Origin: a virus | Virus record (IMG/VR): IMGVR_UViG_3300028392_000315 | Location: 1-22,333 of that record | Strand: one strand, 5' to 3' | DNA length: 22,333 nucleotides | Shown here: piece after piece, positions 2,727-7,149 of the stretch | Layout of the letters: every line of letters starts with the position of its first letter | How positions within the stretch are numbered: the stretch's first letter is position 1 | Position numbers and translations under genes: made by a program | Notes under the pieces: model-generated | What the model was told of the DNA's origin: nothing | Databases searched by the model: none | The model's input: the letters and a program-made list of their open reading frames with translations, nothing else

Positions 2727-3590
2727 TTACAAGTAGGCGTGCTCGTGGGCCGCGATGAACTGGTCGGTGGCCTTGTCCAGCTTGAGCGCCGCCATGGTAT
2801 CTGCAAGGGTCCACAGCGCCTTGTTGAGCTTGACGTTCTCGGAGACGCCGCCCACAGCGCGGGTGGTGGTGCGACGGCCAGTAGCGCTGCGCCCGGGGAC
2901 GCCGCCCTTCATCATGTTCTCTTGGACCCGGTTGTAGACGGTCCACAGGTCGTCCTGACGGTCCTGCCAGCGGCTGGGCTGCAAGAGGCGGCTGGCCTGC
3001 ACGGGCTTCTCATCGCCCCAGCGAATTTGCAGGGCCGAGCGGGCAAAGGCCTGCTGCTCGTCGTAGTCAAGGGTGATGGACTTGTACTCGTCGATGCGGC
3101 TACCGATCTGCTTGGCGTCATCTAGCACTCGGGTGGCGCCCTCGATCACGTCGCCCACCACGTTGCCGCTGTGACGCACCTTGATGTTGTTGAACATGTC
3201 GCCAGCGATCAGGCCGTTGGAGCACACGAAGCGGAACACGCCCGACATGATCTGGTAGCTCGAAGTGCCGTCGTGGCTGTTCAAGAGGATGATCTCGGGG
3301 ACCTCGTCTGCCGCGATGGAGCTGGCGTGGCGCATGCGCACCATGTGCTTGGTGTGCTCACGCTTGGCTTGGTCGCGCACCTTGGTCTGGCGAATCTCGT
3401 AGGGCTGAAAGCCCTCGGCACGCAGGCCGTCGATCACTTGGATCGTGGGGATGAAGCTGTAGCGATCGCCACGGCTCTCGTGGGCCTCGCTGGCCATCAC
3501 GCTGGGGGCGTGGTAGGCGATCTGCTCGTTGGACAAGGCAGACTGGCTACGAAAGCTGGACTGCTGGGAAGATGTTGCGTAACGGATCAT
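2727..3590 (-). CDS. DUF932 family protein
   Basis: A 287-residue protein with the features of DUF932 (phage/plasmid YfjQ/YafZ-like proteins). Residues ~45-90 hold the FIPTIQVIDGLRAEGFQPYE unit and the basic KREHTKHMVRMRH segment. These are followed by EIILLNSHDGTSSYQIMSGV and FRFVCSNGLIAGD (about residues 98-130), which is the family's most diagnostic part. The C-terminal half is helical with a basic Gly/Ser/Arg linker (GRSATGRRTTTRAVGG). A GGAG site lies eight bases before the ATG. The molecular function of DUF932 is not established; the proteins are often near replication and recombination genes. An inefficient or regulated terminator sits directly upstream, so the gene may be read by read-through or from a weak local promoter. 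Confidence 0.9.
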   Translation of the reverse strand: MIRYATSSQQSSFRSQSALSNEQIAYHAPSVMASEAHESRGDRYSFIPTIQVIDGLRAEGFQPYEIRQTKVRDQAKREHTKHMVRMRHASSIAADEVPEIILLNSHDGTSSYQIMSGVFRFVCSNGLIAGDMFNNIKVRHSGNVVGDVIEGATRVLDDAKQIGSRIDEYKSITLDYDEQQAFARSALQIRWGDEKPVQASRLLQPSRWQDRQDDLWTVYNRVQENMMKGGVPGRSATGRRTTTRAVGGVSENVKLNKALWTLADTMAALKLDKATDQFIAAHEHAYL

Positions 3591-3635: not shown

Positions 3636-3920
3636 TTAACGGGATGTGACGCGCACCGAGATGCACGACGTGTTCTTTGTGTAGGCATCGTAGACCTCGG
3701 CGCCGTTTTGGGCAACGAAGAACTCTTTGTCAAACACCTTGCGGTCCATGTCCACCAAGGTGGCCTTAAAGAGGTTGCCCTCAATGGACTGGCCCGACAG
3801 CTTGATCGCGTCCTTGATCGCGTCTGCTTCTTTGGTAAGGTCAGCGATTTGTGCGAGCAAGACGCCCAGACGGTCCACAGAGCCTTCGTTCAATTCCACC
3901 ACCAGTTTTGCTTTAGCCAT
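3636..3920 (-). CDS. small phage protein with N-terminal coiled coil, 94 aa
   Basis: A family type common in phages, of unknown function. Residues 15-42 form a helix (VDRLGVLLAQIADLTKEADA) ending at a conserved-looking SGQSIEGNLFKATLV segment, followed by a short domain ending TKNTSCISVRVTSR. The layout of a helix, then G-x-L/F-x-A-T-x-x, then a C-terminal VRV is widespread in phage early proteins. The ATG has GGAG eight bases upstream after a CACACACATAT leader, and a promoter-like TATACT lies at about 3980. It is the first gene read leftward after the candidate origin. Confidence 0.7.
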   Translation of the reverse strand: MAKAKLVVELNEGSVDRLGVLLAQIADLTKEADAIKDAIKLSGQSIEGNLFKATLVDMDRKVFDKEFFVAQNGAEVYDAYTKNTSCISVRVTSR

Positions 3921-3978
3921 TTTGATACTCCGATATGTGTGTGTTTAGGATGTACCGCAGTTTTTGCTGCGATGGCTG

Positions 3979-4008
3979 AAGTATACACAGCTTTTTGTTG
4001 TTACAACA
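3979..4008 (-). promoter_or_regulatory. candidate minus-strand promoter with TGTTGTTACAACA dyad
   Basis: The minus strand reads TGTTGTAACAACAAAAAGC and then TGTGTATACT. TATACT serves as the -10, and TGTTGT lies 17 bases upstream as a weak -35. The dyad TGTTGT-T-ACAACA occupies 3996-4008. The spacer block ACAACAAAAAG and the TGTATACT block are shared with 1144-1170, which argues that both are real phage control elements. Confidence 0.45.
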
Positions 4009-4009
4009 T

Positions 4010-4190
4010 CTTTTTTGTAAAATAATTCTATTGTTTTCCTTCCACCGATAGTTTTTGCAAATAATTGCAAATCGGATCTGTTTGGCGTGGATCAATGGAT
4101 CAACCCCTAAAGGGGATTGATCCGATCCGATCCAGTTTTCCCTTGGATCAATTTGGATCTGATCCATTTTTATCCAATCTGATCCAGTAA
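4010..4190. other. candidate replication origin: AT-rich segment plus GATC repeat cluster
   Basis: This 300-base gap (3921-4220) contains no convincing gene. Positions 4010-4072 are AT-rich and hold a direct repeat of TTGCAAAT (4055 and 4065). Positions 4074-4185 contain ten GATC sites, each within GGATC or GATCC, at 4075, 4090, 4098, 4119, 4124, 4129, 4146, 4156, 4161 and 4181. One group forms a hairpin, GGATCAACCCC-TAAA-GGGG(A)TTGATCC (4097-4123). An AT-rich unwinding-type segment beside iteron-like repeats, next to the primase-helicase gene, is a typical phage origin layout. It could instead be an operator array. Confidence 0.45.
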
Positions 4191-4220
4191 AAAATTACAA
4201 ATACGCATTTGCTTGCAAAC

Positions 4221-6224
4221 TCATGCGGAGGGCAAACTGAGACGACCGACCGCGTCCATTTGCAAAAAGCCACCTGAAATAACGGCCCGAATATCGCGTT
4301 TTGCGTTATCCACCCGCTTATCGCGCTTACCCGGCGTGGGGTCAAACTTCCGACCAGCGGCCACCACGACCGCCAGCTCGTGCTCCGTCACGGCACCATT
4401 TGTGTCCAAGTCTGCCAAGGTCTTAAACTGATCCATGATCGCCTTTTGGGTCTTGCCAGTAGGTCCCTGCGACACCGCTACCGATGACCGACTGCTATCG
4501 GTGAAGCCCACAACGCAGGTCGTCTCGTCGTCGCCGTCCTCGTCCTCACCCACCACGATGGTCTCTAATCTGAAGCCAAACTCGCCACCATCGGCGCCAC
4601 CTTTCAGCTTGGTAATAATGGCCACGCGCTCCTCATCGGCACGGATGACCTCAAATTCAAAGTCGCAGGCTGCCCTGAGCCCTGACCAGCCCCGCGCCCC
4701 TCTGGACTCGTCCTTGCCGCTGTGATGTATTAGCTCAACCATGGCCCCGGTAAGCCGGGTGATCTCCTTGCAGTGCCCCAGCACCTTGCCCATGTCCTCG
4801 CCAGAATTTTCGTTGCCGCCGGGCATGACCTGAGCCAGCGTGTCCATGACCACCAGATCAAACTCGCCTTGTATACGTATCTGCTTTACCAATGCGCGGG
4901 CATCGGTGAGCTCCATCATGTTTGGCGCATTAGCCACAAAGTACAAGTTGGTCAGCTCCTTGGGATCAACGCCGTGGTGCGCGCAGTACCCGGCCACTCG
5001 CTTGCGCATGTCCTCTTGGCCCTCAGCGGCCACCCAGCAGACCTTAGACTTGGTGGTCTTGTGGCCACGCCACTCAATGCCTCGGGCGATGGCAGCCGCC
5101 ATCTCAAAAGCAAAGAACGACTTGCCCGAGCCGGAAGCCCCGTAAATTACGCCTAAGTTGGCGTTGGGGATTACGTTCTTGATGATCCATGAGGCCTTGC
5201 GGCGCACGATGAACTCTTCGGTGGTCTCCAGCTTGAACCGGTCCTCGGACTTTTTTAGTTGTTCAGCCACCTCCGGGTCGCTGGTGAGGTCGTCAAAGTC
5301 TGAGAGGATCGAGTCCTTGGTGATCGCCTTGGGCTTGGCCTTCTGGCAGTGCTCGACCCACAAGTACGTCATGGCCCGGTCGCCGTCCTGTTGCCGATGG
5401 GCTAAGGCGATCTCAAAGGCGTAATCGTTGTTGGCCAGAATGGAAAACACCATAGAGTCGCTGTACCCGGCGCTGTAGAGTTGCACGCCCGTGGCATGCA
5501 GCAAGGCCGAGCGGTCGTCAGTGATGTCTGGGCCACTGGTCAGGAACTCTTTGGCCGTGGGCGATATGTCCATGTCCTGCACGTCCGGCAGGGCCAGCTC
5601 GTGTATCAGCTCGGGCATCACCAGCGAGATCACCTTGGCGCTCGTGCGGGCCTTGCGGTACTGCGTGTACAACCCGGTCAGAATGTCGGGATGCGGCGTG
5701 CTCACCGGCAAGTCGCGCAGCACGTCGCCCGTGACCGTCAGGAAGCGGCCCTTGTGGCCGTTGTAGACCTCGATGCCCACCGTGTTGTCCTGCACGTCCT
5801 CGGGGATGGACCCACGGGCCAGTATGCGCAGCCCTGTGCCACTGGGGCTCAGTTCGGTGTAGCTGTCCACCGAGTCGATGATCTCCTGCGCCCATGGCGC
5901 GATCTGGCCGTCCGTGATGCACCTATCGAGGTCTATGCCCACCACGTCGGTCATGCCAGTGAGCACCAGCCCCACGCCGCTGTACTTGCCACCCCCGGTG
6001 TCAAAGGCGCGCACCGCCTCCTCAAAGCTGACCCAGCGGTCGGGCTGCATGCTCGACAGGCCGTAGCCCTCGGGGCGGTAGGGCACCTTGTCCCACTTGC
6101 CGCGCTCTTCGTTCCAGATGGCCTTCCAAGGCGCCCAACGGCGCAGGGCCTTGAGCTCGGTGGGGATGTTGCCGGGGTTGAATACCCGGCCAATTGGGGG
6201 ACGCCCCTGACCTGAATTTTGCAT
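4221..6224 (-). CDS. replicative primase-helicase (PrimPol-like N-terminus, RecA-like ATPase)
   Basis: A 667-residue protein starting MQNSGQGRPP. Residues ~95-200 resemble the N-terminal archaeo-eukaryotic primase-type domain of phage and plasmid proteins: VGIDLDRC (acidic motif, ~95), TELSPSGTGLRIL (~123) and GRFLTVTGD (~159). The usual motif-II His (SGxGLH) is Arg here. Residues ~355-525 are a RecA/AAA_25 (RepA-like) helicase domain with Walker A GASGSGKS (~362), Walker B DLVVMDT (~456) and LIHHSGKDESRGARGWSG (~498). The C-terminal part has a small helical domain. I prefer the ATG at 6224 because AGGG is about eight bases upstream; the ATG at 6230 is too close to it. It should unwind DNA at the fork and may prime synthesis. 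It lies between the zinc-binding gene and the candidate origin. Confidence 0.9.
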   Translation of the reverse strand: MQNSGQGRPPIGRVFNPGNIPTELKALRRWAPWKAIWNEERGKWDKVPYRPEGYGLSSMQPDRWVSFEEAVRAFDTGGGKYSGVGLVLTGMTDVVGIDLDRCITDGQIAPWAQEIIDSVDSYTELSPSGTGLRILARGSIPEDVQDNTVGIEVYNGHKGRFLTVTGDVLRDLPVSTPHPDILTGLYTQYRKARTSAKVISLVMPELIHELALPDVQDMDISPTAKEFLTSGPDITDDRSALLHATGVQLYSAGYSDSMVFSILANNDYAFEIALAHRQQDGDRAMTYLWVEHCQKAKPKAITKDSILSDFDDLTSDPEVAEQLKKSEDRFKLETTEEFIVRRKASWIIKNVIPNANLGVIYGASGSGKSFFAFEMAAAIARGIEWRGHKTTKSKVCWVAAEGQEDMRKRVAGYCAHHGVDPKELTNLYFVANAPNMMELTDARALVKQIRIQGEFDLVVMDTLAQVMPGGNENSGEDMGKVLGHCKEITRLTGAMVELIHHSGKDESRGARGWSGLRAACDFEFEVIRADEERVAIITKLKGGADGGEFGFRLETIVVGEDEDGDDETTCVVGFTDSSRSSVAVSQGPTGKTQKAIMDQFKTLADLDTNGAVTEHELAVVVAAGRKFDPTPGKRDKRVDNAKRDIRAVISGGFLQMDAVGRLSLPSA

Positions 6225-6234
6225 GGCCATTCCC

Positions 6235-6582
6235 TTACTTCTGCCAGCCGATGAGTGTCTGCCCCTTGTGTTGGAACACGGCAAGGCGCCCCACAGGGCC
6301 GCACTGTTCGCAGTCCATTTCGACTGACAAACCATTGCGTCTGCGGCTGGGGTTGTCGGTCATTAAACCATCTTGTATCGCAATAGTTTTAGTGCCATCG
6401 CAAAACGTGTAACGGCCAGTTAAAGCGTCTTCGGCGTTGCGGTTGTAAATATGCACCGAACTTTGGTGCGTGTACGTCTCGCCGCACTTGGGGCACAGCG
6501 GGATAAAGTAATCTGATGTTGTTTCGACGAGCGGGTAGGTGCTGGCCAATGTAATTGGCGCACTCTTGAGGGTCTTGGTCAT
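6235..6582 (-). CDS. zinc-binding phage protein, 115 aa
   Basis: Two CxxC pairs (C30-C33 in PLCPKCGETYTH and C91-C94 in MDCEQCGP) should bind one zinc ion. Between them lie a strand-rich segment and NPSRRRNGLSVEMDCEQC, then a C-terminal FQHKGQTLIGW. This arrangement, CPxCG ... SRRxGLxxxxxCExC ... QHKGxTxxxW, is shared by many uncharacterised phage and mobile-element proteins that resemble nucleic-acid-binding zinc ribbons. Its ATG has AAAGG about seven bases upstream. The primase-helicase gene begins 10 bases after its stop, so the two are probably co-transcribed. Confidence 0.75.
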   Translation of the reverse strand: MTKTLKSAPITLASTYPLVETTSDYFIPLCPKCGETYTHQSSVHIYNRNAEDALTGRYTFCDGTKTIAIQDGLMTDNPSRRRNGLSVEMDCEQCGPVGRLAVFQHKGQTLIGWQK

Positions 6583-6679: not shown

Positions 6680-6892
6680 TCAGATATCGGTGGGCGCCAG
6701 CAGCTCTGCCAGTGCCGGGTTGATCAAGCGCTCGCGGGGGATGCCACTGGCCTGCTCCACGGCCCTGACCCACTTGGTGGGCACGTAGCCCTTCCTGAGC
6801 ATCATGGAGATGTTCTGCTGGGTGCAGCCGAGGATGTCGGCCAGTTGGGCCTGCGAGCCCACGGCGTGGATGGCTTCTTCGATTCCGGTCAT
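6680..6892 (-). CDS. Cro/YdaS-like helix-turn-helix regulator
   Basis: A 70-residue protein: MTGIEEAIHAVGSQAQLADI, then LGCTQQNISMMLRKGYVPTK and WVRAVEQASGIPRERLIN. The helix-turn-helix spans residues ~14-36. The pattern of an N-terminal GIEEAI...VGSQ, QNIS-type recognition helix, and a C-terminal (I/V)PxE(R/Q)LxP is that of the YdaS/Cro-like family of phage regulators. It binds DNA as a regulator of early genes or as a YdaST-type toxin component; no YdaT partner is visible. It is the last gene of the 14-gene overlapping operon and its ATG overlaps the stop of the previous gene (ATGA). The ribosome site is GAGAG. Confidence 0.8.
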   Translation of the reverse strand: MTGIEEAIHAVGSQAQLADILGCTQQNISMMLRKGYVPTKWVRAVEQASGIPRERLINPALAELLAPTDI

Positions 6893-7149
6893 TGTGTGCT
6901 CTCGATCATCTTGAGTGTGGAGTTGTGGTAGTCGTGTACTGAGTGGCTGTGGGGGATCGTGAGCCGGGGCCGGTCCATGAACACGCGCTTGTATAGCGTG
7001 TCCTTGTTGTGGAACAGCTCGGCGTACTGCCTTTGCAGCTCCTGCGTGTAGGCCTCTAGGCGCACGTTGGCCTTGGTGTAGTCCGGTTTGGGCTCGCCCG
7101 GGCGCCACGCTAGGTCACGCAGGCGCTGCTTTTGGTTGTTATCGAACAT
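6889..7149 (-). CDS. hypothetical phage protein, 86 aa
   Basis: A charged protein without a recognised domain (MFDNNQKQRLRDLAWRPGEP, then helices around ANVRLEAYTQELQRQYAELF, then HNKDTLYKRVFMDRPRL). The ATG is preceded by GGGAG seven bases upstream. It overlaps the winged-helix gene by 11 bases and the YdaS-like gene by four. Its place between two DNA-binding proteins hints at a replication or regulatory accessory role, which is inference only. Confidence 0.65.
   Translation of the reverse strand: MFDNNQKQRLRDLAWRPGEPKPDYTKANVRLEAYTQELQRQYAELFHNKDTLYKRVFMDRPRLTIPHSHSVHDYHNSTLKMIESTQ

Follow-up and report, generated by a model that had tools for sequence, protein, structure and literature searches.

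In lambdoid phages, type specificity is found between the O proteins, which act as initiators, and the origin iterons; in lambda itself, the O gene contains the iterons and the host provides the helicase. The helicase of the satellite phage P4 alpha protein belongs to SF3. As described in the part of PMC4234260 drawn on here, P4 alpha unites in one protein a primase of the bacterial (Toprim) type, a helicase and a C-terminal winged helix that binds the origin iterons, and RSF1010 oriV contains iterons and hairpin start sites. The same part of this 2014 study describes pRN1 ORF904 as having an AEP primase and a C-terminal winged helix, with an origin just 3′ of the gene whose stem-loop is poorly conserved in sequence, and proposes that SF3-type proteins, among them that of Bordetella phage BIP-1, have a 3′ stem-loop origin recognised by their winged helix, with reference to ‘not yet identified sequence motifs’; the helicase of the pRN1 and BIP-1 proteins is SF3, and the pRN1 origin is presented there without iterons (PMC4234260). 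Iteron origins with matching initiators are already known, as is diversification of the iteron word within a kept layout. The latter comes from geminiviruses, in which, according to the passages of PMC12548392 used here, the positions and pattern of the iterons are kept while their letters diversify and match Rep.

The window analysed in this study is the whole of a virus record, IMGVR_UViG_3300028392_000315, 22,333 bases in length. A 300-bp gap (3921-4220) between the stop of a primase-helicase gene and the next minus-strand gene holds an array of short repeats, which is probably the replication origin of the phage, or the initiator-binding core of it, with iterons that would be read by the C-terminal winged helix of the adjacent primase-helicase. 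The features of the locus are as follows.

3636 to 3920, minus strand: next gene downstream of the array, 94 aa (MAKAKLVVE...)
3985 to 4073, unstranded: AT-rich flank (71% AT over 3985-4074), holding TTGCAAAT at 4055 and 4065
4074 to 4186, minus strand: iteron array of about nine to ten TGGATCA-like units in two orientations, with ten GGATC/GATCC
4088-4094, 4096-4102 and 4144-4150, plus strand, and 4160-4166 and 4180-4186, minus strand: exact TGGATCA units
4097 to 4123, unstranded: central hairpin, two inner iterons around CCCCTAAAGGGG (minus strand, CCCCTTTAGGGG)
4187 to 4214, unstranded: second AT-rich flank (76% AT over 4186-4214), between the primase-helicase stop and the array
4221 to 6335, minus strand: primase-helicase, 704 aa, with an N-terminal AEP primase-polymerase, a RepA/RecA-type helicase (AAA_25) and a C-terminal winged helix
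4224 to 4499, minus strand: C-terminal winged-helix domain, aa 613-704, the proposed iteron reader
4275 to 4316, minus strand: third helix of this domain, aa 674-687, in the model the likely recognition helix
4317 to 4319, minus strand: residue 673, just before the third helix, the column that best tracks the word of the array

The primase-helicase is proposed to be the initiator. Its family profile matched 7ola (8.3e-35), 6a9w (4.6e-26) and 1g8y, ‘regulatory protein RepA’ (1.1e-5), in the PDB, entries that we take to come from phage BFK20, NrS-1 and RSF1010, respectively, and Pfam identified AAA_25 in the protein (1.2e-33); a second profile (A2) found no relative in the PDB under E 0.01, and NCBIfam gave nothing above cut-off. 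The protein resembles P4 alpha in being a one-protein primase-helicase with a predicted C-terminal winged helix, and in the presence of iterons in both orientations at its putative origin, but it has an AEP primase and a RepA-type helicase instead of a Toprim primase and an SF3 helicase. The AEP primase, indicated by the 7ola and 6a9w matches, is shared with pRN1 ORF904, whereas the helicase is of the AAA_25/RSF1010 RepA type and not SF3; the array has a hairpin, pair 4 of which co-varies in relatives, and this hairpin may or may not correspond in function to the stem-loop 3′ of the pRN1 gene. RSF1010 is similar in its RepA-type helicase (the 1g8y match), its iterons and its hairpin, but it employs three separate proteins (RepA, RepB′ and RepC), while the system described here has one protein and iterons of about 7 bases. 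RepC is a separate iteron binder; the best candidate reader here, among the part of the window genes that was compared, is the primase-helicase's own domain. Lambdoid O proteins are comparable in their specificity for iterons, and differ in the location of the iterons inside the O gene and in their use of the host helicase. The geminivirus Rep is unrelated to the window primase-helicase. Geminiviruses share with this locus a conserved layout with changing letters but, as the same passages describe them, are rolling-circle ssDNA plant viruses (PMC12548392). Elsewhere in the window, a small HTH protein encoded at 6680-7012 on the minus strand (Pfam YdaS, 1.4e-10; PHROG transcriptional repressors) is a possible Cro-like regulator.

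The preliminary description of this DNA had reported ten GATC sites in the gap. All ten are present, starting at 4075, 4090, 4098, 4119, 4124, 4129, 4146, 4156, 4161 and 4181, and their number is far above chance: in 2000 dinucleotide shuffles of 3978-4220 GATC occurred 1.06 times on average and at most 5 times, and across 200 shuffles of the whole window no 112-bp stretch contained more than 5. Its further observations were also reproduced, namely the GGATC or GATCC form of every site, the spacing of 5-21 bases from one site to the next, the triple GATCC (at 4119/4124/4129), the hairpin GGATCAACCCC, in which 4097-4107 pairs with 4113-4123, and the direct repeats TTGCAAAT in the AT-rich segment. 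The conserved unit of the window array is not GATC, but a word of about 7 bases, TGGATCA, that occurs on both strands, with five exact and four one-mismatch copies in 3980-4230 against a background of 2.85 per kb (at most one mismatch) in the rest of the window.

Among relatives, the array is present and conserved, and its word changes. Loci of relatives (numbered with the prefix L) were found by homology scans with the primase-helicase: a scan of viral contigs gave 57 loci, a genome scan gave 3 more, and many others, often overlapping, came from another four scans that started from diverged relatives. The same type of array was found 3′ of the primase-helicase gene in 64 of 72 distinct loci, among the matches listed, by a strict count that required a 5-mer to occur at least seven times in 150 bp, more often than in any of 20 shuffles, and was not supplied with any words. 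It begins at most 100 bp past the stop in 54 of the 64 loci and 299-445 bp past it in 10. An extra gene or a longer spacer was seen before the array at L022, L030, L032, L033, L034, L036, L040, L050, L111 and L122; at loci of this kind the word and the C-terminus still agree where compared. The strict count missed eight of the 72 loci. At L065 and L070 an array is visible by eye, at L198 it lies elsewhere in the contig, and at L024, where the gene is frame-broken as extracted, it occurs further on; no significant array was found by the automatic k-mer search at L044, L060, L343 and L344. In all six relatives' contigs that were scanned (together 853 windows of 700 bp), no 6-mer cluster was denser than the array. 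Other dense 6-mer clusters were noted in L380 near 37450 (GGCACA), in L377 at about 3900-4200 (CTACGC) and in L374 near 31150 (GATAAC), which are possible operators or second origins, and L057 has sixteen GGCTAC within 150 bp (3178-3327) in a contig with only a primase-domain relative.

Read on the gene strand, the usual layout begins with an AT-rich stretch followed by direct copies of the word at intervals of about 9-10 bases and some inverted copies, and continues with two direct copies, the apical hairpin, two inverted copies and the second AT-rich stretch. The 7-base word is TGGATCA in the window and TGCAACA, TGCACCA, TGCTTCA or TGCTTCC in relatives, with TGCCACA, CCCACA, CTCCA, TGGAACA and others in further relatives. 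Clusters of GATC just 3′ of the gene were seen in the first set only at L002 (a longer contig with a primase-helicase gene identical to that of the window), L003, L005 and L007, all four with the array positioned as in the window, and later at L085. Loss of the repeats in close relatives had been named in the preliminary description as a point that would tell against an origin: the letters are indeed lost, but the array itself is retained.

The word follows the C-terminal domain of the primase-helicase alone. Pairwise identity in sliding 20-residue windows was compared with possession of the same word, with the overall primase/helicase identity removed, for 54 labelled loci (word labels being assigned by the analyst, not blindly, in this and the other co-variation tests) that were reduced to 43 by a 95% identity filter and represent nine words. 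Loci of uncertain word were left out of the labelled counts (L044, L051, L067, L068, L070, L092, L098, L102, L108, L111, L267, L343, L344 and others), and L059, L197 and L263, which lie outside the main clade, were kept in the 43-sequence, tree and residue-673 analyses. The partial correlation with the word peaks at 0.776 for residues 661-680, and windows that start before residue 600 average −0.01 (sd 0.138, maximum 0.193). In a second test on 27 loci with the same next gene (28 were labelled, of which 27 had both flank and next gene), the C-terminal 75 residues gave a partial r of 0.815, a value reached by none of 1000 label permutations, and the values were −0.136 for the 150 bp directly beyond the array, as seen from the primase-helicase, and 0.035 for the next-gene protein. 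Quick trees of 56 sequences with ten states, some branches of which are poorly supported, require 17 word changes for the primase/helicase part and 9, the minimum for ten states, for the C-terminal part. Natural swaps are seen in pairs with differing words, such as L107/L122 (primase/helicase part 98% identical, C-terminal part 37%), L104/L101 (95% and 29%) and the window phage and L004 (84% and 30%). In the last pair the AT-rich flank is 78% identical over 150 bp, and the stretch that matches this flank (3985-4073) is similar in relatives with other words. Partial correlations, trees and natural swaps therefore agree that the C-terminal domain and the array move together, and that the DNA on both sides does not. 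This co-variation makes it likely that the C-terminal domain binds the iterons; iteron identity is non-essential for replication in geminiviruses, as stated in the passages of PMC12548392 used here, which calls for caution in interpreting the domain as an iteron reader.

AlphaFold2 predicts that the C-terminal 104 residues form three helices and a wing (pLDDT 79.9), in agreement with the model of the full-length primase-helicase (pLDDT 85.6). VIA-align placed the domain with winged-helix proteins at Z 7-9 (up to 8.9), many winged helices fitting, and Foldseek gave no match in the PDB under E 0.001; we therefore claim the fold of the domain and not its family. The absence of the P4 alpha domain from the Foldseek matches listed carries no weight. 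Residue 673 is identical in 84% of same-word pairs versus 14% of different-word pairs (26 representatives). For example, TGGATCA is accompanied by K at this position, TGCAACA and TGCACCA by T, M or L, TGCTTCA, TGCTTCC and TGGAACA by Q, TGCCACA and CCCACA by R, and CTCCA by N. Judging from the sequences, this is not a one-residue code: TGCAACA and TGCACCA share T/L at 673, and nearby residues read Q-x-A-R-R versus Q-H-T or Q-H-V. Helix features are shared by diverged proteins that have the same word, as in L197 with the TGCAACA group, L059 and L263 with the TGCTTCA group, and L198 and L009, which have TGCACCA in common and Q-H in the helix of both. For L198 the word was guessed beforehand from KRDTR as GCAAC, one base off the actual TGCACCA.

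An apical hairpin of the CCCTTTAGGG type is frequent in the arrays of relatives, in which other loops also occur. The hairpin search was limited to C-TTTA-G loops and required the first three pairs, so pairs 1-3 provide no evidence. Among the 26 distinct TTTA-loop hairpins of relatives, pair 4 is C-G in 13, A-T in 5, T-A in 4 and unpaired in 4, and hence Watson-Crick in 22/26; for pairs 3-7 together, 83/130 are paired versus a shuffle mean of 61.8 and maximum of 80, an excess that comes partly from search selection. The TTTA-loop hairpin is also found in Roseobacter phage isolates with quite different words. By eye, an AT-rich motif of the type TGCAAATTTTTAC / GTAATTTTTTAC recurs beside arrays with different words, examples being window 4186-4200, L047, L067 and L108.

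An operator function, in which the primase-helicase or another protein would bind the repeats and control downstream transcription and the array would have no part in initiating replication, is unlikely. The array does lie between two same-strand genes, upstream of the next one, the minus strand contains a TTGTAA...TATACT pair, whose spacer is short at about 15 bases, and repressor-operator specificities also diversify. However, a consensus scan of the minus strand (3880-4300) found no sigma-70-like promoter, the word tracks the C-terminus of the primase-helicase and neither the next-gene protein nor the promoter-side DNA (0.035 and −0.136, as above), and the array is retained where an extra gene separates it from the primase-helicase (the 10 of 64 loci with a start 299-445 bp past the stop). 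Could the array and the C-terminus co-vary merely as recombining neighbours, with no binding between them? They adjoin, block exchanges are clear, and co-inheritance may contribute in part, but the DNA directly across the array does not co-vary, and L059, L263, L197 and L198 are too diverged for a recent block exchange and nevertheless share helix features according to their word. Moreover, L049 and L050 are nearly alike in the primase/helicase part (branch lengths 0.03 and 0.04), with the C-terminus mostly kept, and differ in helix residues and word. Linkage as the whole explanation is for these reasons highly improbable.

The array may also be thought to serve in partition or in packaging, or to act as an RNA element within the transcript of the primase-helicase. 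Heptad arrays are known in plasmid centromeres, and the array can fold as ssDNA (z = −3.77), a signal that is mostly explained by the iterons alone because they are inverted. The Rfam search returned four matches, every one sub-threshold, and the search for intrinsic terminators found none on the minus strand, the direction of transcription, and one weak match on the plus strand, which together count against an RNA element; no other gene was found to follow the word, the next gene having been compared, and we consider all these functions very unlikely. There is next to no chance that the GATC sites constitute a methylation switch of the Dam/SeqA type, as their density in the window and the GATC heptamers of the P1 origin might suggest, given that relatives sharing this layout contain 0-3 GATC in the 350 bp downstream and zero inside the repeats. 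Since these include close relatives, GATC is an accident of the word of the window phage, and the sensitivity to Dam-type methylation put forward in the preliminary description is unsupported. As a conserved feature, Dam/GATC regulation is refuted by the change of the word among relatives.

If the array is the origin or its initiator-binding core, the C-terminal winged helix would bind the 7-base iterons of the neighbouring array, several protomers would gather there, and the RepA-type ring would open the AT-rich flank, for which 3985-4073 is a possible unwinding region. The central hairpin, once exposed as single-stranded DNA, may then be the start site for the primase-polymerase; these unwinding and priming steps are ones that we infer. 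In the part of PMC8718748 drawn on here, the NrS-1 primase-polymerase recognises TTTGGTTA and GTG-type template sites, and by analogy site-specific priming at the exposed hairpin is plausible. Iterons and recognition helix would change together, either because a short cassette of C-terminal domain plus array is exchanged or because residues of the helix are substituted. Origin activity is suggested by the position of the array, the type of protein and the precedents of P4, pRN1 and RSF1010. The origin beside the primase-helicase gene that the preliminary description had proposed is thus favoured by the type of repeat array, the AT-rich flanks and the comparative tie to the predicted DNA-binding domain, but finds no echo in GC skew, which had been suggested as a check: a cumulative extremum coincides with the array in none of six relatives' contigs, and in the window's own phage a cumulative-skew maximum is about 0.4 kb from the array, whose position in that contig was derived.

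Arrays also follow the RepA-type primase-helicase gene in isolated phages. The word is ACTACA in the Roseobacter phages CRP-823 and CRP-811 and GTATAA in CRP-821 and CRP-831, the Roseobacter isolate proteins having 88-93% identity to that of CRP-823, and arrays with other words occur in CRP-406, Salicola CGphi29 and Vibrio phage 1.076.O. The loci L346-L349 and L393 are those of isolated Roseobacter phages that have arrays with different words and are convenient experimental material. Just downstream of the gene, no array was found in the RepA-type phages BcepGomr, Gustav, phi673, GB2A and BFK20, nor was a repeat array found 3′ of the gene of phage BIP-1; ctyzp037 has a GGGACA cluster some 1.5 kb downstream. 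Bacterial loci with arrays are L351-L353, from one bacterial family, and the Limnohabitans locus L059. At L355, L356, L360, L361, L362 and L060, bacterial chromosomal RepA-type genes have TTTA-loop hairpins and short repeats downstream, and these may be integrated elements with the same type of origin. A literature search, from which subscription journals were mostly outside, found no report of such phage arrays, of the C-terminal co-variation or of cassette exchange, and the consulted portions of PMC12629253, on CRP-822-type phages, contain no mention of a replication origin, iteron or repeat.

On balance, we lean towards the view that phages encoding an AEP primase, a RepA-type helicase and a winged helix in a single protein form a widespread replicon class, with a re-codable origin cassette just 3′ of its reader, a partly legible word code set by a few helix residues, chiefly 673, and replication-specificity groups among otherwise near-identical phages. 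It is an unsolved question of evolution how an essential initiator and its origin can switch to another recognition sequence and stay functional. For this system dozens of natural versions are available, among them near-isogenic pairs in which only domain and array differ, as well as Roseobacter isolates with two words, and domain-swap and code-breaking experiments are therefore direct. The array words are candidates for the motifs that were missing in the 2014 study of pRN1, in a system that is related and not identical, and the layout of array and gene offers an easy means of finding origins in many phages and prophages that lack annotation.
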